From the NCBI RefSeq assembly GCF_014647155.1, contig NZ_BMOQ01000003.1:62001-126000 (forward strand): a stretch of 64,000 nucleotides of DNA, in the 5' to 3' direction. Made by a program: the position numbers and the translations under genes. Positions 37,429-46,290 of the stretch are shown here, in pieces. Origin of the DNA: Halarchaeum nitratireducens. Lineage in GTDB: Archaea; Halobacteriota; Halobacteria; Halobacteriales; Halobacteriaceae. Each line of letters starts with the position of its first letter. Position 1 is the first letter of the stretch. The notes under the pieces were generated by a model that made no database searches, was not told the DNA's origin, and saw only the letters and a list, made by a program, of their open reading frames with translations.

Positions 37429-38088
37429 TCATTCGAGGTACTCTTCGAGGGCGTCGGTCACGACGGCCCCCGGAGTCACGTCCTCGACGGCCGCCCGTCG
37501 TCTGAGCTCCCGATAGGTGTCGAGCGGGAGCGAGACGGTGAGCTCGCCGGGCGTGACGCCGCGCTCGCGCAGCGCGTCCTCGATGGGCCGACCGTCGTTC
37601 ACCTCGCTGGCGATCGCGCGCACCTCGCGGACGGTGAGGTCGTTGTCGATGGCGGCGAACGCGAGCTGATAGCGCGCTTCGCCCCCGACGCGCGCGATGT
37701 GCTTCGCCGCGGTCGGTGCGATATGGCCCGCGGCGACGTGTCGACGGACGGGACGCGGGAGGTCGTGGACGCGCGCCCACTTTCGGATGAACGAGACGGT
37801 GACGCCGTCGCCGGCGCGCTCGGCCGCGGCCTTATAAGACCCCTCGGCGCGGACGAGCGCCGCGCAGGCCGCCGCCCCGCGGAGCATGTAGAACCGATCG
37901 TCGCCGAGCTCGCCGCCCGCGAACGATGCGACGGTCTCGGCGGCGTCGGCGACGCTCTCGGGATCGGTCGGATCGAATTCGACGGCCTCCTGTGCGCGCT
38001 CCCCGGCGACGCGCTCGTCGCCGCGGATGACGGGTCGCCCCACCGGTGACTCGCGGTCCGTCGGCGGAATCTCTGACCCGTCGCTCAT
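37429..38088 (-). CDS. Conserved haloarchaeal regulatory-type protein (DUF7119-like)
   Basis: 219 residues. The middle region has helix-turn-helix character (SYKAAAERAGDGVTVSFIRK, then HIAPTAAKHIARVGGEARYQ), like the ParB/KorB HTH. The C-terminal 45 residues (LTVSLPLDTYRELRRRAAVE plus VTPGAVVTDALEEYLE) resemble a ribbon-helix-helix. A DNA-binding regulator is likely, but the target is unknown. A TTTATATC box on the minus strand about 25 bases before the ATG gives a leaderless promoter; longer upstream frames are rejected for that reason. Confidence 0.75.
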   Translation of the reverse strand: MSDGSEIPPTDRESPVGRPVIRGDERVAGERAQEAVEFDPTDPESVADAAETVASFAGGELGDDRFYMLRGAAACAALVRAEGSYKAAAERAGDGVTVSFIRKWARVHDLPRPVRRHVAAGHIAPTAAKHIARVGGEARYQLAFAAIDNDLTVREVRAIASEVNDGRPIEDALRERGVTPGELTVSLPLDTYRELRRRAAVEDVTPGAVVTDALEEYLE

Positions 38089-38119
38089 ATCCTTGCTAGA
38101 ACGTCTCCGATATAAATCT

Positions 38120-38239
38120 CTACTCCTCGGCGCGCCGCTCGCTGAGGTGCTCCCAGATCTCGGTGCACCCCGCCCCCGGCTCGACATCGTCGAGATGATC
38201 GTCCCCGTCGCGGCCGGCCTCGGTTTGTGTCTCTGCCAT
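38120..38239 (-). CDS. 39-residue acidic small protein, conserved-looking
   Basis: ATG to TAG, 39 codons. The product is strongly acidic with a distinctive end: DDVEPGAGCTEIWEHLSERR, containing one Cys. The composition is haloarchaeal rather than GC-noise, and a TATA-like box on the minus strand (CTTATACC, about 38263-38270) lies about 27 bases before the ATG. A short gap separates it from the DUF7119-like gene on the same strand. I recall similar short C-termini in other haloarchaea but cannot verify this. Function is unknown. The 250 bases upstream hold only a stem ACTACCCG/CGGGTAGT (38287-38312). Confidence 0.65.
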   Translation of the reverse strand: MAETQTEAGRDGDDHLDDVEPGAGCTEIWEHLSERRAEE

Positions 38240-38489
38240 GTGCCCCTTCGTACGACCCCCATCGGTATAAGGACGCCCCAGAGCGCACTACCCGCCTTTG
38301 CTTCCGGGTAGTAGTGATTCCCGCCCCTTTCGACGACGCCGAGCGACCCGTCGAGATACGGGTACATCGTCGCCTCGAAAGCCCAGGACGCGGGGAGTCG
38401 GCGGACGCGACAGATCGCGGTCGTGCCATCGGACCCAGTACCGGCAACAAAGTCTGCTTATCCGGTCCCGATTCCGACGCGGCGGTCGA

Positions 38490-39761: not shown

Positions 39762-39886
39762 CGGTCCGACGCTACTCGCCCGCGGCGTTTGGGCCCGTCG
39801 GTCCCGCGACCGGACACCAGTCGAACCGTGTGACTCACCCTCGTGACTTTAGTCGTCGGGGGCCTCACGTCCGAGTACCACGCCAT

Positions 39887-41821
39887 ATGAACGAGGGTAC
39901 GTCCTCTCCGGGCCGGCCGACCGCCGCGAACGCATCCCGGATCGATCCGCCGCCCGCGTTCGTCGAGCGGGCGAACGTCACCGATCGATCGATCCGGGAG
40001 GGCTTCGCGGATCGCTGGCCGGAGTGCTGGGATCGGGCCGCGGCCTTCCTCGACTGGTCGTCGTCGTACGATCGAGTGCTGGACGCCGCGAACGGATACG
40101 ACTGGTTCGCCGGCGGCGCGTTGAACGCGTCGTACAACTGCGTCGACAGGCACGTCGAGGCCGGCCGGAAGAGCCACGCGGCCCTCAAGTGGGAGGGTCG
40201 CCTCGGCGAGACGCGGACGTACACGTACCACGACCTCTACCGCGAGGTGAACGCGCTCGCCGCCGCCCTCCGCGAGCGGGGCGTCGAGGCCGGTGACGTC
40301 GTCACGACGTACATGCCGGTACTCCCGGAGCTCCCGGTGACGATGCTCGCATGCGCCCGTCTCGGCGCCGTCCACTCGGTCGTCTTCGCCGGCTACTCGG
40401 CCGACGCTCTCGCCATGCGACTCGCCGACACCGAGTCGGCGTGGCTGCTCACCTGCGACGGCTACTACCGGCGCGGGACCGCCCACGACCTGAAGCGGAA
40501 GGCGGACAACGCCTGTCTCCGCGCCCCGCAGTCGGTCGATCGCATCATCGTCGACCGGCTCGACGACGACCGATCCTACGGCGACAACTACGCCGAGTAC
40601 GCGACCCTCCTCGACGAGTACGCCGGGGAGACGGTCGATCCGGTCCCCCGAGAGTCGAGCGATCCTCTCTTCGTCATCTACACCTCGGGGACCACCGGTC
40701 GTCCGAAGGCTGTCCGACACGCGACCGGCGGCTATCTCGCACAGGTCGCGTGGACGTCTCACGCCGTCCTCGACCTCGAACCCGGTGACACGCACCTCTG
40801 CTCGGCGGATGTCGGGTGGATCACGGGGCACTCGTACGTCGTCTACGGCCCGCTCGCGCTCGGGGCGACGACGGTGTTGTACGAGGGAACGCCGGACTAC
40901 CCCGAGCGGGACCACCTCTGGGAGATCGTCGAGCGCAACGCCGTCGACGTCTTCTACACGGCGCCGACGGTCATCCGCGCGTTCATGAAGTGGGGCGCGG
41001 AGCACCCCCAGCGCCACGATCTCTCCTCGCTGCGGTTGCTCGGAACCGTCGGCGAACCGATCGACGAGACGACGTGGCGGTGGTACTACGACCACGTCGG
41101 GAACGGCGCCTGTGCGCTCGTCGATACGTGGTGGCAGACCGAGACCGGCGGGATCGTGGTCTCTACGCTGCCCGGCGTCGACGGGATGCGCCCGGGCACC
41201 GCCGGCCCGCCCCTCCCGGGCATCTCCGCCGACGTCGTCGACGCGTGCGGTGAGCCGGTCGACCCGGGTGAATCCGGTTCGCTCGTCCTCACCCGCCCCT
41301 GGCCCGGCATGGCGCTCGGCCTCGGCGACTCGACGGGCGAGGCGCCCACGGCGTGGCGCTATGAGACGGGCGACGCGGCGGCCGTCGACGCGGACGGCTA
41401 CCTCCGGCTTCTTGGCCGCGAGGGGAACGCCCTCAACGTCGCCGGGCAGCGACTGGGAACGCGCGAGCTCGAGGCGGCGATCGTCGGCGTCGACGGCGTC
41501 GCCGAGGCGGCGGTCGTCGGCGTCGACGGTCCCCAGAGCGATACCGCCCTCTACGCGTACGTCACGCCGCAGCGCGACGCCGGGTCCGCGGGACCGCTGC
41601 GCGAGCGGGTGCGTGCGGCCGTCGCGGCCGCCATTGGTCGGTTCGCCACCCCGGATGTCGTCGTCTTCACGCCCGACCTCCCGAAGACCCGCTCCGGGAA
41701 GGTCCTCCGGCGCCACCTCCGACAGATCGCCAGCGGTGAGCGAGTCTCCGATACGGAACCGCTTCGCAACCCCGAGATCGTCGGCGAGCTCGAATCGATC
41801 GTCGACGGCGTTTCGGAGTAA
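39887..41821 (+). CDS. Acetyl-CoA synthetase paralogue with altered hinge motif
   Basis: 644 residues. AMP-forming acyl-CoA synthetase of the ACS group: P-loop YTSGTTGRPKAVRHATGGYL, WITGHSYVVYGPLALGATT, and VDTWWQTETGGIVVSTLPG keep the acetate-pocket Trp, and LPKTRSGKVLRRHLR keeps the regulatory Lys. However, the canonical GRxDDVxNVSGHRLGT hinge reads GREGNALNVAGQRLGT (about residues 510-525), so both hinge aspartates and the His are replaced, and the segment before it is about 20 residues shorter than in the neighbouring copy. The start ATG is chosen by homology with that copy. It may be impaired or act on another substrate. Confidence 0.88.
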   Translation: MNEGTSSPGRPTAANASRIDPPPAFVERANVTDRSIREGFADRWPECWDRAAAFLDWSSSYDRVLDAANGYDWFAGGALNASYNCVDRHVEAGRKSHAALKWEGRLGETRTYTYHDLYREVNALAAALRERGVEAGDVVTTYMPVLPELPVTMLACARLGAVHSVVFAGYSADALAMRLADTESAWLLTCDGYYRRGTAHDLKRKADNACLRAPQSVDRIIVDRLDDDRSYGDNYAEYATLLDEYAGETVDPVPRESSDPLFVIYTSGTTGRPKAVRHATGGYLAQVAWTSHAVLDLEPGDTHLCSADVGWITGHSYVVYGPLALGATTVLYEGTPDYPERDHLWEIVERNAVDVFYTAPTVIRAFMKWGAEHPQRHDLSSLRLLGTVGEPIDETTWRWYYDHVGNGACALVDTWWQTETGGIVVSTLPGVDGMRPGTAGPPLPGISADVVDACGEPVDPGESGSLVLTRPWPGMALGLGDSTGEAPTAWRYETGDAAAVDADGYLRLLGREGNALNVAGQRLGTRELEAAIVGVDGVAEAAVVGVDGPQSDTALYAYVTPQRDAGSAGPLRERVRAAVAAAIGRFATPDVVVFTPDLPKTRSGKVLRRHLRQIASGERVSDTEPLRNPEIVGELESIVDGVSE

Positions 41822-41936
41822 GGCGAAAACGCGAAACCGAACTCCGAGATAGCGGCTCCTCTCTTCTCACATTCAGACCGTTGGTGACTCTCACCACCCA
41901 ACGCTTATTTCGCGATAGTATCAAGAGCGAAACGGC

Positions 41937-43649
41937 ATGGACGACCCGTCGGCCGGAGCGCCGCTCACGACGGCCGAATACGAGCGCCTCGTCGACGCCG
42001 CCGACTCGTACCGCACGGAACTCCTCGTCGCCCTCTGCGGGCGCGTCGGCCTGCGGCCCGGCGAGATCGCACGCCTCCGCCCCGGCGACCTCACCCGGAC
42101 GTCGAGCGACCACGACTTCCTCGCGGTCCCGGGGGACGACGACACGCGCGACGCCTACGTTCCGCCGGCCGCCGCGGCCGACGTCCGCAAGTACGCCGGC
42201 GCGGCCGACATCGCCGACGACGAACCGCTCTTCGACGTGACGCCGCGCCGTCTCCAGATGCTGATCGCGGAGGTCGCGGAGCGGGCCGCCGACGGTGACG
42301 ACGACCGCCTCGCCGACGTCTCCACGCGCGACCTCCGCGCGCACTTCGCCGCTCGCCTGCTCGGGGCCGGCGTCGACCCCCGCATCGTCCGCGAAGCGGG
42401 TGGGTGGTCGAGCCTCGCCAGCTTGGAGCCGTACGCCGATCCGCCGACCCGCGCGGAGGTCGCCGCCGCGCTGAGCGACGAAGCGGCGGCCGGGAGCGAC
42501 GCCTCACCGACGGAGCCGGACCGCGAACGACCCGATCGCTCGGGGTTCGCGGAGGCGGCGACGGCCCTCGGTGCGGCGCTCGAGGACGTGGCGACCAGAC
42601 CGGCGGTCGAGGAGCGGGCGTGCGAGGCGCTCGCCGCGACGTGCGGGCCGGCGGTGATCTGCGACGAGCGTGGGGAGATCCGGGCGTCGACCGGCGTCGA
42701 CGACCCGGACGCCCGCGCGGCGATCGCGGACGTGTTGGACGAGACGGCCCTCCTCGACGTCGAGGGCGGCGTTCGGTTCGTCGAGCGCGACCTCACCGCC
42801 GAGGCGTGGCGGGCCGACCGGACGCTGGCGTCCAGCGCCATCCGCGCCGGCGACCGCGTCCACGGGCTCCTCTGTGTCGTCGTCGGCCCGTCCACGTCGA
42901 CCAGCGGCCTTCGACGCGCGCTCGTCGACGCTGGGCGGCGCGTCGGGTGGGCGGTGGCGGCGACCGAGCGCAAGGAGCGACTGCTCTCCGATACGGGCGT
43001 CGAACTGGTGTTCGAGGTGGACGCGGGGTCGTTCTTCGCGTCGGCGTCCCGGGCGCTCGACTGTCGACTGGAGCTCGACGGGCTCGTCCCGATGGCCGAT
43101 CAGTCGCTCCTCTGCTTCGTCGCGGCGCGTGAGGTTTCGGTCGACGCCCTCCTCGACCGGGCCGCCGCGTCGAACGGGATCGCCGACGTTCGCCTCATCC
43201 GCGACGCGGGCGAGCGCGCACAGCTTGAGTTCGTCGTCCGCTCGGACGCGCCGATCGCGGAGATCGTGCGACGCGGTGGCGCCGTGGAGTCGGTGACGGC
43301 CGCCGACGGGGTCGCGCGCGTCGCCGCCGTCTTCCCGACACAGACCGACGTCCGAACGCTCGTCGAGGACGTCACCGCGGCGCACCCCGGTGTCTCGTTC
43401 CGGGCCAAACGCGAGGCCGTGCGGCGCGAGTCGCCGGACGACGTCCACCGGACGGTGGAGCACGAGCTGACCGATAAACAGCGAGTGACGCTCCGCGCGG
43501 CGTACTTCGCGGGCTACTTCGAGTGGCCGCGCGGCAGCACCGCGGAAGAGCTCGCGGGCTCCATGGGCGTCTCGGCACCGACACTGCACAACCACCTTCG
43601 AAAGGCCCAACAGAAGGTCTTCACCGCGCTGTTCGACTCGTCCTCGTGA
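41937..43649 (+). CDS. HTH-10 (Bat-type) regulator with N-terminal tyrosine-recombinase-like domain
   Basis: 570 residues. Residues about 9-170 resemble a tyrosine recombinase catalytic domain: CGRVGLRPGEIARLRPGDL (Arg40), then STRDLRAHFAARLLGAGVD (Arg131, Arg134), GGWSSLASLEPYAD (Trp157, Tyr166). The His of HxxR is replaced by Arg131 and no beta-hairpin Lys is apparent, so catalysis is doubtful. Residues about 185-340 form a GAF-like sensor and about 340-500 the bacterio-opsin-activator region. The C-terminus is HTH-10 (LTDKQRVTLRAAYFAGYFEW, then GSTAEELAGSMGVSAPTLHN). It lies between the two acs genes, so it probably regulates acetate use. Confidence 0.85.
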   Translation: MDDPSAGAPLTTAEYERLVDAADSYRTELLVALCGRVGLRPGEIARLRPGDLTRTSSDHDFLAVPGDDDTRDAYVPPAAAADVRKYAGAADIADDEPLFDVTPRRLQMLIAEVAERAADGDDDRLADVSTRDLRAHFAARLLGAGVDPRIVREAGGWSSLASLEPYADPPTRAEVAAALSDEAAAGSDASPTEPDRERPDRSGFAEAATALGAALEDVATRPAVEERACEALAATCGPAVICDERGEIRASTGVDDPDARAAIADVLDETALLDVEGGVRFVERDLTAEAWRADRTLASSAIRAGDRVHGLLCVVVGPSTSTSGLRRALVDAGRRVGWAVAATERKERLLSDTGVELVFEVDAGSFFASASRALDCRLELDGLVPMADQSLLCFVAAREVSVDALLDRAAASNGIADVRLIRDAGERAQLEFVVRSDAPIAEIVRRGGAVESVTAADGVARVAAVFPTQTDVRTLVEDVTAAHPGVSFRAKREAVRRESPDDVHRTVEHELTDKQRVTLRAAYFAGYFEWPRGSTAEELAGSMGVSAPTLHNHLRKAQQKVFTALFDSSS

Positions 43650-43720
43650 TGGTGGCGCTCGGGTGTGCCAACTAATTAGAATGAATGTTTATTACAATAG
43701 CTTCGATTGCTACGTGTGGT

Positions 43721-45712
43721 ATGGTAGAAAACGACAACCTCGAAACGCGATTGGCCGAACAGGACGTGTTCGAGCCGCCAGAGTCGTTCGTCGAGCAGGC
43801 TAACGTCACCGATCCGAACATCTACGAGGAGTTCGAGGAGAACTGGCCCGAGTGTTGGGAGGGCGCCGCCGATCTCCTCGACTGGTACGACGACTACGAT
43901 CAGGTGCTCGACGACTCGAACCCGCCGTTCTACGAGTGGTTCACCGGCGGGACGCTGAACGCCTCCCACGAGTGCGTCGACCGGCATCTGTCCGAGCGCG
44001 GCGACGAAGTCGCCATCGAGTGGGTCGGCGAGCCGGCCGACGAGGCCGACCGCTCGATCACCTACGAGGAGCTCCACCGGGAGGTGAACGAGTTCGCGGC
44101 GGCGTTACGCGACCTCGGGGTCGGCGAGGACGACGTCGTCACGATGCACATGCCGATGATCCCCGCCCACCCGATCGCGCTCCTCGCCTGCGCGCGTATC
44201 GGCGCGCCCCACTCGGTCGTCTTCGCCGGCTTCTCGGCCGAGGCGCTCGCCGAGCGGATGAACGCCGCCGACTCCGAGTACCTCGTCACCGCGGACGGCT
44301 ACTACCGGCGCGGCGACCCCCTCGACCACCTCTCGAAGTCACGCGAGGGCGTCGAGAAAGTCGAGCACGACGTCGAGACGGTCGTGGTCGATCGCCTCGG
44401 CCCGAACGGCGACGACTTCGGCCACGACCTCGACGAGGACGAACACGACTACGCTGACCTCGTGGCCGACCACGCCGGCGCGACGGTCGAGCCGGTCGCT
44501 CGCGACGCGGAGGACATGCTCTTCCTCATGTACACCTCCGGGACCACCGGCCAACCGAAGGGGGTGAAACACACGACGGCGGGCTATCTCGCGTGGACGG
44601 CGTGGACCTCGCAGGCCGTCCTCGACGTCAAACCCGAGGACACCTACTTCTGCTCGGCGGACATCGGGTGGATCACCGGTCACTCCTACATCGTCTACGG
44701 CCCCCTCGCCCTCGGGACGACGACGACGATGTACGAGGGCGCACCCGACTACCCCGCGGAGGACCGTTTCTGGGAGATCGTCGACGACCTCGACGTCACG
44801 CAGTTCTACACGGCGCCGACGGCCATCCGGTCGTTCATGAAGTGGGGCGCGGAACACCCGCAGCGCCACGACCTCTCCTCGCTGCGGTTGCTCGGGACGG
44901 TCGGCGAACCGATCAATCCGAAGCCGTGGAAGTGGTATTACAAGCACATCGGCGGCGAGGAGTGCCCGATAGTCGACACGTGGTGGCAGACGGAGACCGG
45001 CGGTCACATGGTGACGACGCTCCCCGGCGTCAACGACATGAAGCCCGGGAGCGCCGGTCCCGCGCTCCCCGGCGTCGACGCACGTATCGTCGACGGCAAC
45101 GGCGAGGAAGTACCCGCGGGCGGTGCCGGCTATCTGACCGTCCAGAAGCCGTGGCCCGGGATGCTGCGCACGCTCTACAAGAACGACGAGCGGTTCATCG
45201 ACGAGTATTGGGCCGAGTACTCCGACACCGACTCTGACGACCCCGAGGACTGGGTCTACTTCCCCGAGGACGGCGCGAAGATCGACGACGAGGACTACAT
45301 CACCGTCGTCGGTCGCGTCGACGACGTCGTCAACGTCTCCGGGCACCGACTCGGGACCATGGAGATCGAGTCCGCGGTCGTCTCCGCCGAGGGCGTCGCC
45401 GAGGCCGCCATTGTCGGCGCGAGCGACGACCTGAAGGGCGAAGTCATCCACGCCTACGTCATCCTCGAAGACGACGACGCCGATGAGGACGAACTGCGCG
45501 AGCGCATCGAGGCCGCCGTCGAGGATCAGATCGGTCCCATCGCGCGGCCGGCGAAGATCGTCTTCACGCCCGAGCTCCCGAAGACCCGCTCCGGGAAGAT
45601 CATGCGCCGCCTCCTCGAAGAGATCTCCGACGGGGAGGAACTCGGCGACACCTCGACGCTTCGCAATCCCGACATCGTCCGCAATATCGAAGCCGAAGTC
45701 CGAGGTGAGTGA
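43721..45712 (+). CDS. acs: Acetyl-CoA synthetase (AMP-forming), canonical copy
   Basis: 663 residues. Acetate plus ATP plus CoA gives acetyl-CoA. All motifs are intact: YTSGTTGQPKGVKHTTAGYL, DTWWQTETGGHMVTTLPGVN, hinge and A8 GRVDDVVNVSGHRLGTMEIE, and LPKTRSGKIMRRLLEE with the Lys acetylated in other species. The ATG (MVENDNLETRLAEQ) follows an A/T-rich promoter (AATGTTTATTACAATAG, about 30 bases upstream), so the GTG/ATG codons before it are rejected. It follows the regulator by 71 bases and precedes the transporter by 2. Confidence 0.96.
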   Translation: MVENDNLETRLAEQDVFEPPESFVEQANVTDPNIYEEFEENWPECWEGAADLLDWYDDYDQVLDDSNPPFYEWFTGGTLNASHECVDRHLSERGDEVAIEWVGEPADEADRSITYEELHREVNEFAAALRDLGVGEDDVVTMHMPMIPAHPIALLACARIGAPHSVVFAGFSAEALAERMNAADSEYLVTADGYYRRGDPLDHLSKSREGVEKVEHDVETVVVDRLGPNGDDFGHDLDEDEHDYADLVADHAGATVEPVARDAEDMLFLMYTSGTTGQPKGVKHTTAGYLAWTAWTSQAVLDVKPEDTYFCSADIGWITGHSYIVYGPLALGTTTTMYEGAPDYPAEDRFWEIVDDLDVTQFYTAPTAIRSFMKWGAEHPQRHDLSSLRLLGTVGEPINPKPWKWYYKHIGGEECPIVDTWWQTETGGHMVTTLPGVNDMKPGSAGPALPGVDARIVDGNGEEVPAGGAGYLTVQKPWPGMLRTLYKNDERFIDEYWAEYSDTDSDDPEDWVYFPEDGAKIDDEDYITVVGRVDDVVNVSGHRLGTMEIESAVVSAEGVAEAAIVGASDDLKGEVIHAYVILEDDDADEDELRERIEAAVEDQIGPIARPAKIVFTPELPKTRSGKIMRRLLEEISDGEELGDTSTLRNPDIVRNIEAEVRGE

Positions 45713-45714
45713 TC

Positions 45715-46290
45715 ATGCCCGCTAACACCGACACCGCGAACCCCGGACCGCTCGGCCTCGTCGCGTTCGGCCTGACGACCGTCCTCCTCAGTCTCGTCAA
45801 CGGCGGGATCCTACCCAGCGCGGGTGAACCCGTCGTCCTCCCGCTCGCGCTCGCCTTCGGCGGCACGTGCCAGTTCTTCGCCGGCCTCCTCGAGTATCGG
45901 GAGGGGAACACGTTCGGGTACACGGCGTTCTGTAGCTACGGGGCGTTCTGGTGGTGGTTCGGCCTGCTCGTCCTCTTCGCGGGCAACGGTTGGCTCTCCG
46001 TCAACGCGACGGCCGTCGGCGCCGCGCTCCTCCTCTGGGGGCTCTTCACGGCCTACATGTGGGTCGCGACGTTCAAGCTCAACTGGGCGCTCTGGTCCGT
46101 GTTCCTCACGCTGACCATCACGTTCCTGCTGCTCGGTCTCGGCGACCTCGGCTTCGGGACGGCGACGATCGGCGGCTACGTCGGCGTCCTCACCGGCCTG
46201 CTCGCCATGTACGCCTCGTTCGCGGAGGTCGTCAACTGGGCGTGGGACCGCACCGTGGTCCCCATCGGCGGCGCGCCGCTCAGCGACTGA
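45715..46290 (+). CDS. satP: Acetate transporter, GPR1/FUN34/SatP (YaaH) family
   Basis: 191 residues with six helices. The family signature NPGPLGLVAFGLTTVLLSLV is at residues 9-28, followed by FGGTCQFFAGLLEYREGNTF and YGAFWWWFGLLVLF. Members are acetate/succinate-proton symporters or channels. Only 2 bases separate it from the acs stop, so uptake and activation are co-transcribed. Confidence 0.94.
   Translation: MPANTDTANPGPLGLVAFGLTTVLLSLVNGGILPSAGEPVVLPLALAFGGTCQFFAGLLEYREGNTFGYTAFCSYGAFWWWFGLLVLFAGNGWLSVNATAVGAALLLWGLFTAYMWVATFKLNWALWSVFLTLTITFLLLGLGDLGFGTATIGGYVGVLTGLLAMYASFAEVVNWAWDRTVVPIGGAPLSD

Follow-up and report, generated by a model that had tools for sequence, protein, structure and literature searches.

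Why does a gene situated between two acetyl-CoA synthetase genes encode a transcriptional regulator that begins with a domain resembling a tyrosine recombinase? The question arose from a sequence-only reading of a window of 64,000 nucleotides of Halarchaeum nitratireducens DNA (the whole stretch that was analyzed), which proposed that a recombinase fold had been recruited either as a DNA-binding or dimerization module of a metabolic regulator or as a promoter-inverting switch. As described there, an acs gene (AMP-forming acetyl-CoA synthetase) flanks it on either side. Both have the same orientation as the gene, and the second acs is directly followed by a gene for an acetate transporter (Table 1). 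The longest open reading frame of the downstream acs starts at ATG 43685, i.e., inside the upstream element termed A and inside its own promoter; orthologs favor the ATG given in the table. The same window encodes a DUF7119 protein that weakly matches ParB-HTH and does not belong to the findings on the fusion.

Table 1. Features of the acs locus and the related stand-alone integrase of Halarchaeum nitratireducens. Positions refer to the window unless a contig or locus is named.
Feature	Position	Strand	Remarks
DUF7119 protein	37429-38367	-	ParB-HTH match, E 9.5e-5
Upstream acs	39830..41821	+	true start probably further in
Element B, TTCG-N15-CGAA inverted repeat	41909..41931	+	after the TATA box and before the start codon of the fusion gene; possible operator for autoregulation
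Fusion regulator gene	41937..43649	+	570 aa; recombinase domain, middle, BAT, HTH_10
Tyrosine-recombinase catalytic-type domain (residues ~9-168)	41961..42440	+	Pfam, PDB-sequence and family-profile matches
BAT domain (PF15915; residues 352-499)	42990..43433	+	Pfam E 1.5e-33
HTH_10 DNA-binding domain (PF04967; residues 511-563)	43467..43625	+	Pfam E 1.7e-20
Element A, (TTTTGYA)YANYTAG-N8-YTTA	43667..43692	+	upstream element and TATA box of the downstream acs
Downstream acs	43721..45712	+	likely start ATG 43721 by ortholog alignments
GPR1/FUN34/YaaH (SatP-type) acetate transporter	45712..46290	+	PF01184, E 4.8e-39
Stand-alone integrase	G000:C12:4855-5400 (L124:4843-5445)	-	43% identical to the fusion domain

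The N-terminal part of the protein was matched by the Phage_integrase family PF00589 over residues ~10-168, with an E-value of 8.2e-10 for the whole protein (above the curated cut-off) and of 3.3e-11 for the N-terminal 182 aa alone, so that the earlier call of a tyrosine-recombinase-like domain within residues 1-180 stands. An NCBIfam model for archaeal XerA matched residues 9-167 (E 1.3e-10, below the model's own cut-off), and the best PDB-sequence match by phmmer was the XerC-like recombinase 4a8e (E 3.9e-9). A profile built from 48 family members recovered, among PDB sequences, 4a8e (9.7e-20), XerA 5hxy (1.3e-11), XerD (2e-4), and Cre (8e-4), and 46 of the 48 orthologous N-terminal domains matched PF00589 individually. 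On the strength of these profiles, we assign the domain, by descent, to the tyrosine recombinase/phage integrase superfamily. A core-binding domain is absent, as the recombinase domain starts as early as residue ~9. The C terminus comprises BAT and HTH_10, as in HTH-10/Bat-type regulators. The GAF-like segment that had also been proposed was not detected by Pfam in the middle of the 570-aa protein, though PAS and GAF domains occupy this place, ahead of BAT, in many orthologs (L084, L111, L143, L101, and L085). Comparison of L084, L111, L143, and L101 with the 570-aa fusion suggests that these sensor domains were gained or lost while the locus was otherwise fixed.

Structure models were poor. 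The AlphaFold model of the recombinase domain, computed from a three-sequence alignment of the fusion and related-locus sequences from this analysis, reached a mean pLDDT of 66. With this low-confidence model, the top ~45 Foldseek matches were tyrosine recombinases (best E 1.9e-5, TM ~0.28), and VIA-align gave Z ≤ 4.5, for Cre. Superposition on known recombinases was only partial. The full-length model (pLDDT 43) was left out of the analysis. Because of the weak structure model, the claim of a recombinase fold rests on the sequence profiles.

Alignment with orthologs and stand-alone relatives confirmed the assignment of R40, R134, W157, and Y166 as active-site residues and placed R131 at the position of the HxxR histidine; a hairpin lysine is missing. 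Across 48 fusions, R134 was present in all, R40 in 45, tryptophan or histidine at position 157 in 46, and Y166 in 32 (the tyrosine is missing in 16), while the HxxR histidine was found in three and the beta-hairpin lysine in one. None of the 48 fusions carries the complete six-residue set (R-K-H-R-H/W-Y), compared to 14/14 stand-alone relatives. The loss of His and Lys noted in the sequence-only reading was thereby borne out, and strand-transfer chemistry has probably been lost. Nine positions are invariant across the 48 fusions, namely R26, G38, E43, R71, R104, R105, M108, L133, and R134. R104, R105, and M108 are part of a family-invariant, fusion-specific RRxQM motif at residues 104-108. By eye, this motif aligns with helix J of Cre, at the position of its base contacts. 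Since R71, R104, R105, M108, L133, and R134 do not vary, the domain is constrained rather than decaying, i.e., it was kept after the loss of catalysis, with its arginines and a motif of its own.

The domain is related to stand-alone haloarchaeal tyrosine integrases of ~200 aa, which are 36-42% identical to it; one of them, for which 43% was obtained, is encoded in the H. nitratireducens genome itself. They share its length, its lack of a core-binding domain, and a GGW box, but differ from the fusions in having all six catalytic residues, a GK-rich beta-hairpin, and mobile-element-like neighbors. No stand-alone integrase was found beside acs among those examined. Homologs of this kind (L125-L139) occur in many haloarchaea, with a complete R-K-H-R-W-Y set and no core-binding domain; where neighbors were looked at, they included a methyltransferase-like gene (L128) and a ParA-like gene (L136). 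In a tree of the domain, the stand-alone integrases formed a supported group (100/96) apart from the fusions, with an uncertain root. A viral origin was considered and rejected: no relatives in viral contigs were confirmed, and the lone weak phage relative was the integrase of Haloferax LSV-48N, 26% identical to a stand-alone relative.

The search for further fusions, as suggested by the sequence-only reading, revealed a widespread family. The N-terminal domain was matched in 106 of 145 Halobacteria genomes (E ≤ 1e-12), and about 93 of the 145 carry a fusion, as counted by hand among the listed matches in long reading frames. A draw across the phylum gave matches only in genomes of the order to which H. 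nitratireducens belongs. Synteny was analyzed in 15-kb neighborhoods of dozens of loci, including 48 fusions from many genera. In 46 of these, co-directional acs genes are located both upstream and downstream of the fusion gene; the exceptions are L073, which is cut off by the end of its contig, and L105, in which the upstream acs alone is present. On named plasmids of Haloferax alexandrinus, Haladaptatus salinisoli, and Halococcus dombrowskii, the genes follow one another as acs, fusion, acs, DUF4212, and SSF acetate symporter, with elements A and B both present, and RefSeq labels the fusion there as a "bacterio-opsin activator domain-containing protein". One locus (L140; G010:C1:1716000-1719200) represents a natural disruption mutant, in which the fusion gene is interrupted, close to where the recombinase domain ends, by an insertion of ~1.3 kb that leaves both acs genes and both elements intact.

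Two conserved elements were identified at these loci. Element B (TTCG-N15/16-CGAA) occurs near the start of the fusion gene in 44 of 48 loci, compared to a mean of 3.8 and at most 11 in shuffled sequences, and in most of the 44 it is positioned after the TATA box and before the start codon. The strict pattern TTATTTCG-N13-17-CGAAA is found once in the genome of H. nitratireducens; in other genomes, it is less specific to this site. Promoters of denitrification genes linked to NarO, an HTH-10 regulator, contain CGAA-N4-TTCG-like sites (PMC10062603), and because of these known CGAA half-sites, HTH_10 is the likely reader of element B. In family f3, many loci (e.g., L086, L087, and L089) have AACGTTTATTCG ahead of the first acs, with TTCGAAC ~17 nt further along and still before the start codon; the first acs promoter of this clade possibly carries an element-B-like site.

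Element A (core TAG-N8-YTTA) precedes the downstream acs in 39 of 46 loci (shuffled sequences: mean 0.6, at most 4). Its longer consensus reads TTTTG-Y-A-Y-A-N-Y-TAG-A, and YTTA corresponds to the TATA box ~35 nt before the start codon. The H. nitratireducens copy, TAATTAGAATGAATGTTTAT at 43673-43692, is the single occurrence of this version in the genome. A stricter pattern had exactly one match, always just downstream of the fusion, in 15 of 16 fusion genomes searched, and no match in the three fusion-less genomes searched. Element A was also missing at the promoter position of the best acs homolog (which may sometimes be a paralog) in 30 fusion-less genomes, one of which has an off-position copy. 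Element and fusion co-occur: eight genera with both fusion-bearing and fusion-less species agree (g1, g2, g3, g11, g20, g22, g24, and g26), with a tie in g25 and no case to the contrary. L157 and L159 come from fusion-less species of a genus in which the fusion is otherwise present, and their acs promoters contain TTAG and CTTATT as in element A but spaced differently; this site may be in decay or may have been put to another use. The promoter of the first acs has element A in only 2 of 48 loci, and the element is not a feature of it. Protein columns that co-vary with the flavor of element A are confounded by phylogeny and spread over all domains, and therefore give no pointer to the domain reading it. 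Element A could also be recognized by a different factor, encoded by a gene that disappears along with the fusion, or be inherited with the locus.

Expression data relevant to this locus are available for Haloferax volcanii, in which acs7 (HVO_A0156), HVO_A0155, ssf (ActP), and uspA form one transcript that was found on acetate only, and in which acs8 is HVO_A0158 (PMC7746861). The gene between acs8 and acs7 is accordingly HVO_A0157, which, by synteny with H. alexandrinus, would be the fusion. The transcript length places the induced promoter between the fusion gene and acs7, i.e., at the position of element A. The intervening gene goes unmentioned in that study, and the literature searched yielded no mention of HVO_A0157 or HFX_5130, no report of the fusion, and no binding or expression experiment on the fusion protein. 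HVO_0894/HVO_0896 were also weighed as a possible equivalent of the locus in Haloferax but were dropped, the two acs proteins being only 16% identical.

The conserved dead domain, the acs synteny, and the two elements support the proposed recruitment of the recombinase fold into a metabolic regulator. We consider it likely that the fusion protein is a local, autoregulated transcription regulator of acetate activation and uptake, with the dead recombinase serving as a DNA-binding or assembly module. Such a regulator would be ancestral, or nearly so, to Halobacteria. It would have originated by fusion of a catalytic domain related to the stand-alone integrases ahead of a Bat-type sensor/regulator, and selection would then have maintained the fold of the catalytically dead domain, most likely because it provides a second module for DNA binding or for assembly induced by DNA. 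HTH_10 probably reads the CGAA half-sites of element B at the protein's own promoter, which would result in autoregulation, and the protein may act on the downstream acs promoter via element A, which immediately precedes the TATA box. The acs gene and the acetate-transporter genes that follow would thereby be switched with acetate, the direction of control and the nature of the signal both being presumed. Binding of both elements by the fusion protein is what we infer from their conservation. As to the division of labor, it is possible, though less likely than not, that, in an arrangement conserved throughout the class, the dead recombinase domain reads element A and HTH_10 reads element B. 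If so, one polypeptide would serve two promoters with two unrelated DNA-binding folds. What was once a DNA-rearranging enzyme thus appears to serve, with its fold retained, as a component of a metabolic switch.

A possible alternative, to which we give less than even credence, is that the recombinase domain is a protein-protein (dimer/oligomer) module only, that HTH_10 performs all specific DNA recognition, and that element A is read by HTH_10 or another factor. The BAT-HTH_10 proteins Bat, NarO, and DmsR do regulate promoters without a recombinase domain, exchange of the C-terminal helix is a normal assembly mode of tyrosine recombinases, and the tyrosine position varies in a third of the fusions. 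However, conservation of both active-site arginine positions and of RRxQM in nearly all fusions is more than an assembly surface needs. Very improbable is a phase switch, in which the recombinase domain would have kept an activity of altered chemistry and would use it to invert or excise DNA at the acs locus. The 570-aa protein retains two arginines, W157, and Y166, and an isolated loss of K or H does not abolish activity in every recombinase, but the incomplete active site is shared by all 48 fusions, a third of which lack the nucleophilic position's tyrosine. Furthermore, gene order and orientation are identical in all loci with both acs genes, no inverted repeats flank the promoters beyond what is expected for GC-rich coding DNA, and element A is a single half-site-like element rather than a pair of recombination sites; the promoter-inverting switch was therefore abandoned. 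That the N-terminal similarity is fortuitous is extremely improbable, as the poor, partly superposing AlphaFold model is outweighed by full-domain Pfam, NCBIfam, and PDB-sequence matches far above chance and by clear relatedness to catalytically complete integrases.

For the preferred reading, i.e., a dead recombinase within an acetate regulator, the nearest precedent in terms of mechanism is MrpR (YopR), the master repressor of the Bacillus subtilis prophage SPbeta (PDB 8A0A), which has a tyrosine-recombinase fold without recombination activity and represses via a 15-bp element; its authors suspect further such cases (PMC10516654). In the fusions, a recombinase domain without a complete active site is kept under selection. 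MrpR differs in that it is a repressor controlling phage lysogeny, has a core-binding domain of its own, and lacks a fused regulator; it has kept K and Y and lost Arg and His. The fusion, by contrast, is a putative metabolic regulator encoded on archaeal chromosomes or megaplasmids that has the catalytic-type domain only, fused to BAT-HTH_10, and keeps Arg and loses K and His. Use of a dead tyrosine recombinase as a phage repressor is thus already known, and the cellular fusion differs from it in host, role, architecture, and residues lost. The expectation of novelty consequently held in part: the literature searched contains no description of the fusion, but the family is class-wide, labeled in RefSeq, and preceded by MrpR. 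Bat, NarO, and DmsR share with the fusions the C-terminal BAT and HTH_10, the central PAS/GAF seen in many orthologs, and a gene adjoining its targets, but described members lack a recombinase domain, and the site at the fusion gene has the form TTCG-N15/16-CGAA rather than CGAA-N4-TTCG. The archaeal XerA/XerC-like recombinases (4a8e, 5hxy), as the best sequence match among solved structures, are active enzymes with an N-terminal core-binding domain. In the plant ALOG transcription factors, part of a tyrosine recombinase was likewise recruited as a DNA-binding domain, but these eukaryotic proteins use the N-terminal core-binding part and not the catalytic domain (PMC3537659).

For haloarchaeal acetate metabolism, no regulator of the acetate induction of the acs7-actP operon is known from the literature searched, although the regulator gene seems to be located between the two acs genes studied there. 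The locus supplies a candidate regulator together with two candidate operators, which are testable in Haloferax. The catalytically intact stand-alone relatives allow a direct comparison with the dead domain. The idea that dead recombinases may become regulators, so far supported by the phage protein MrpR, would thereby gain a cellular, archaeal, and class-wide case.
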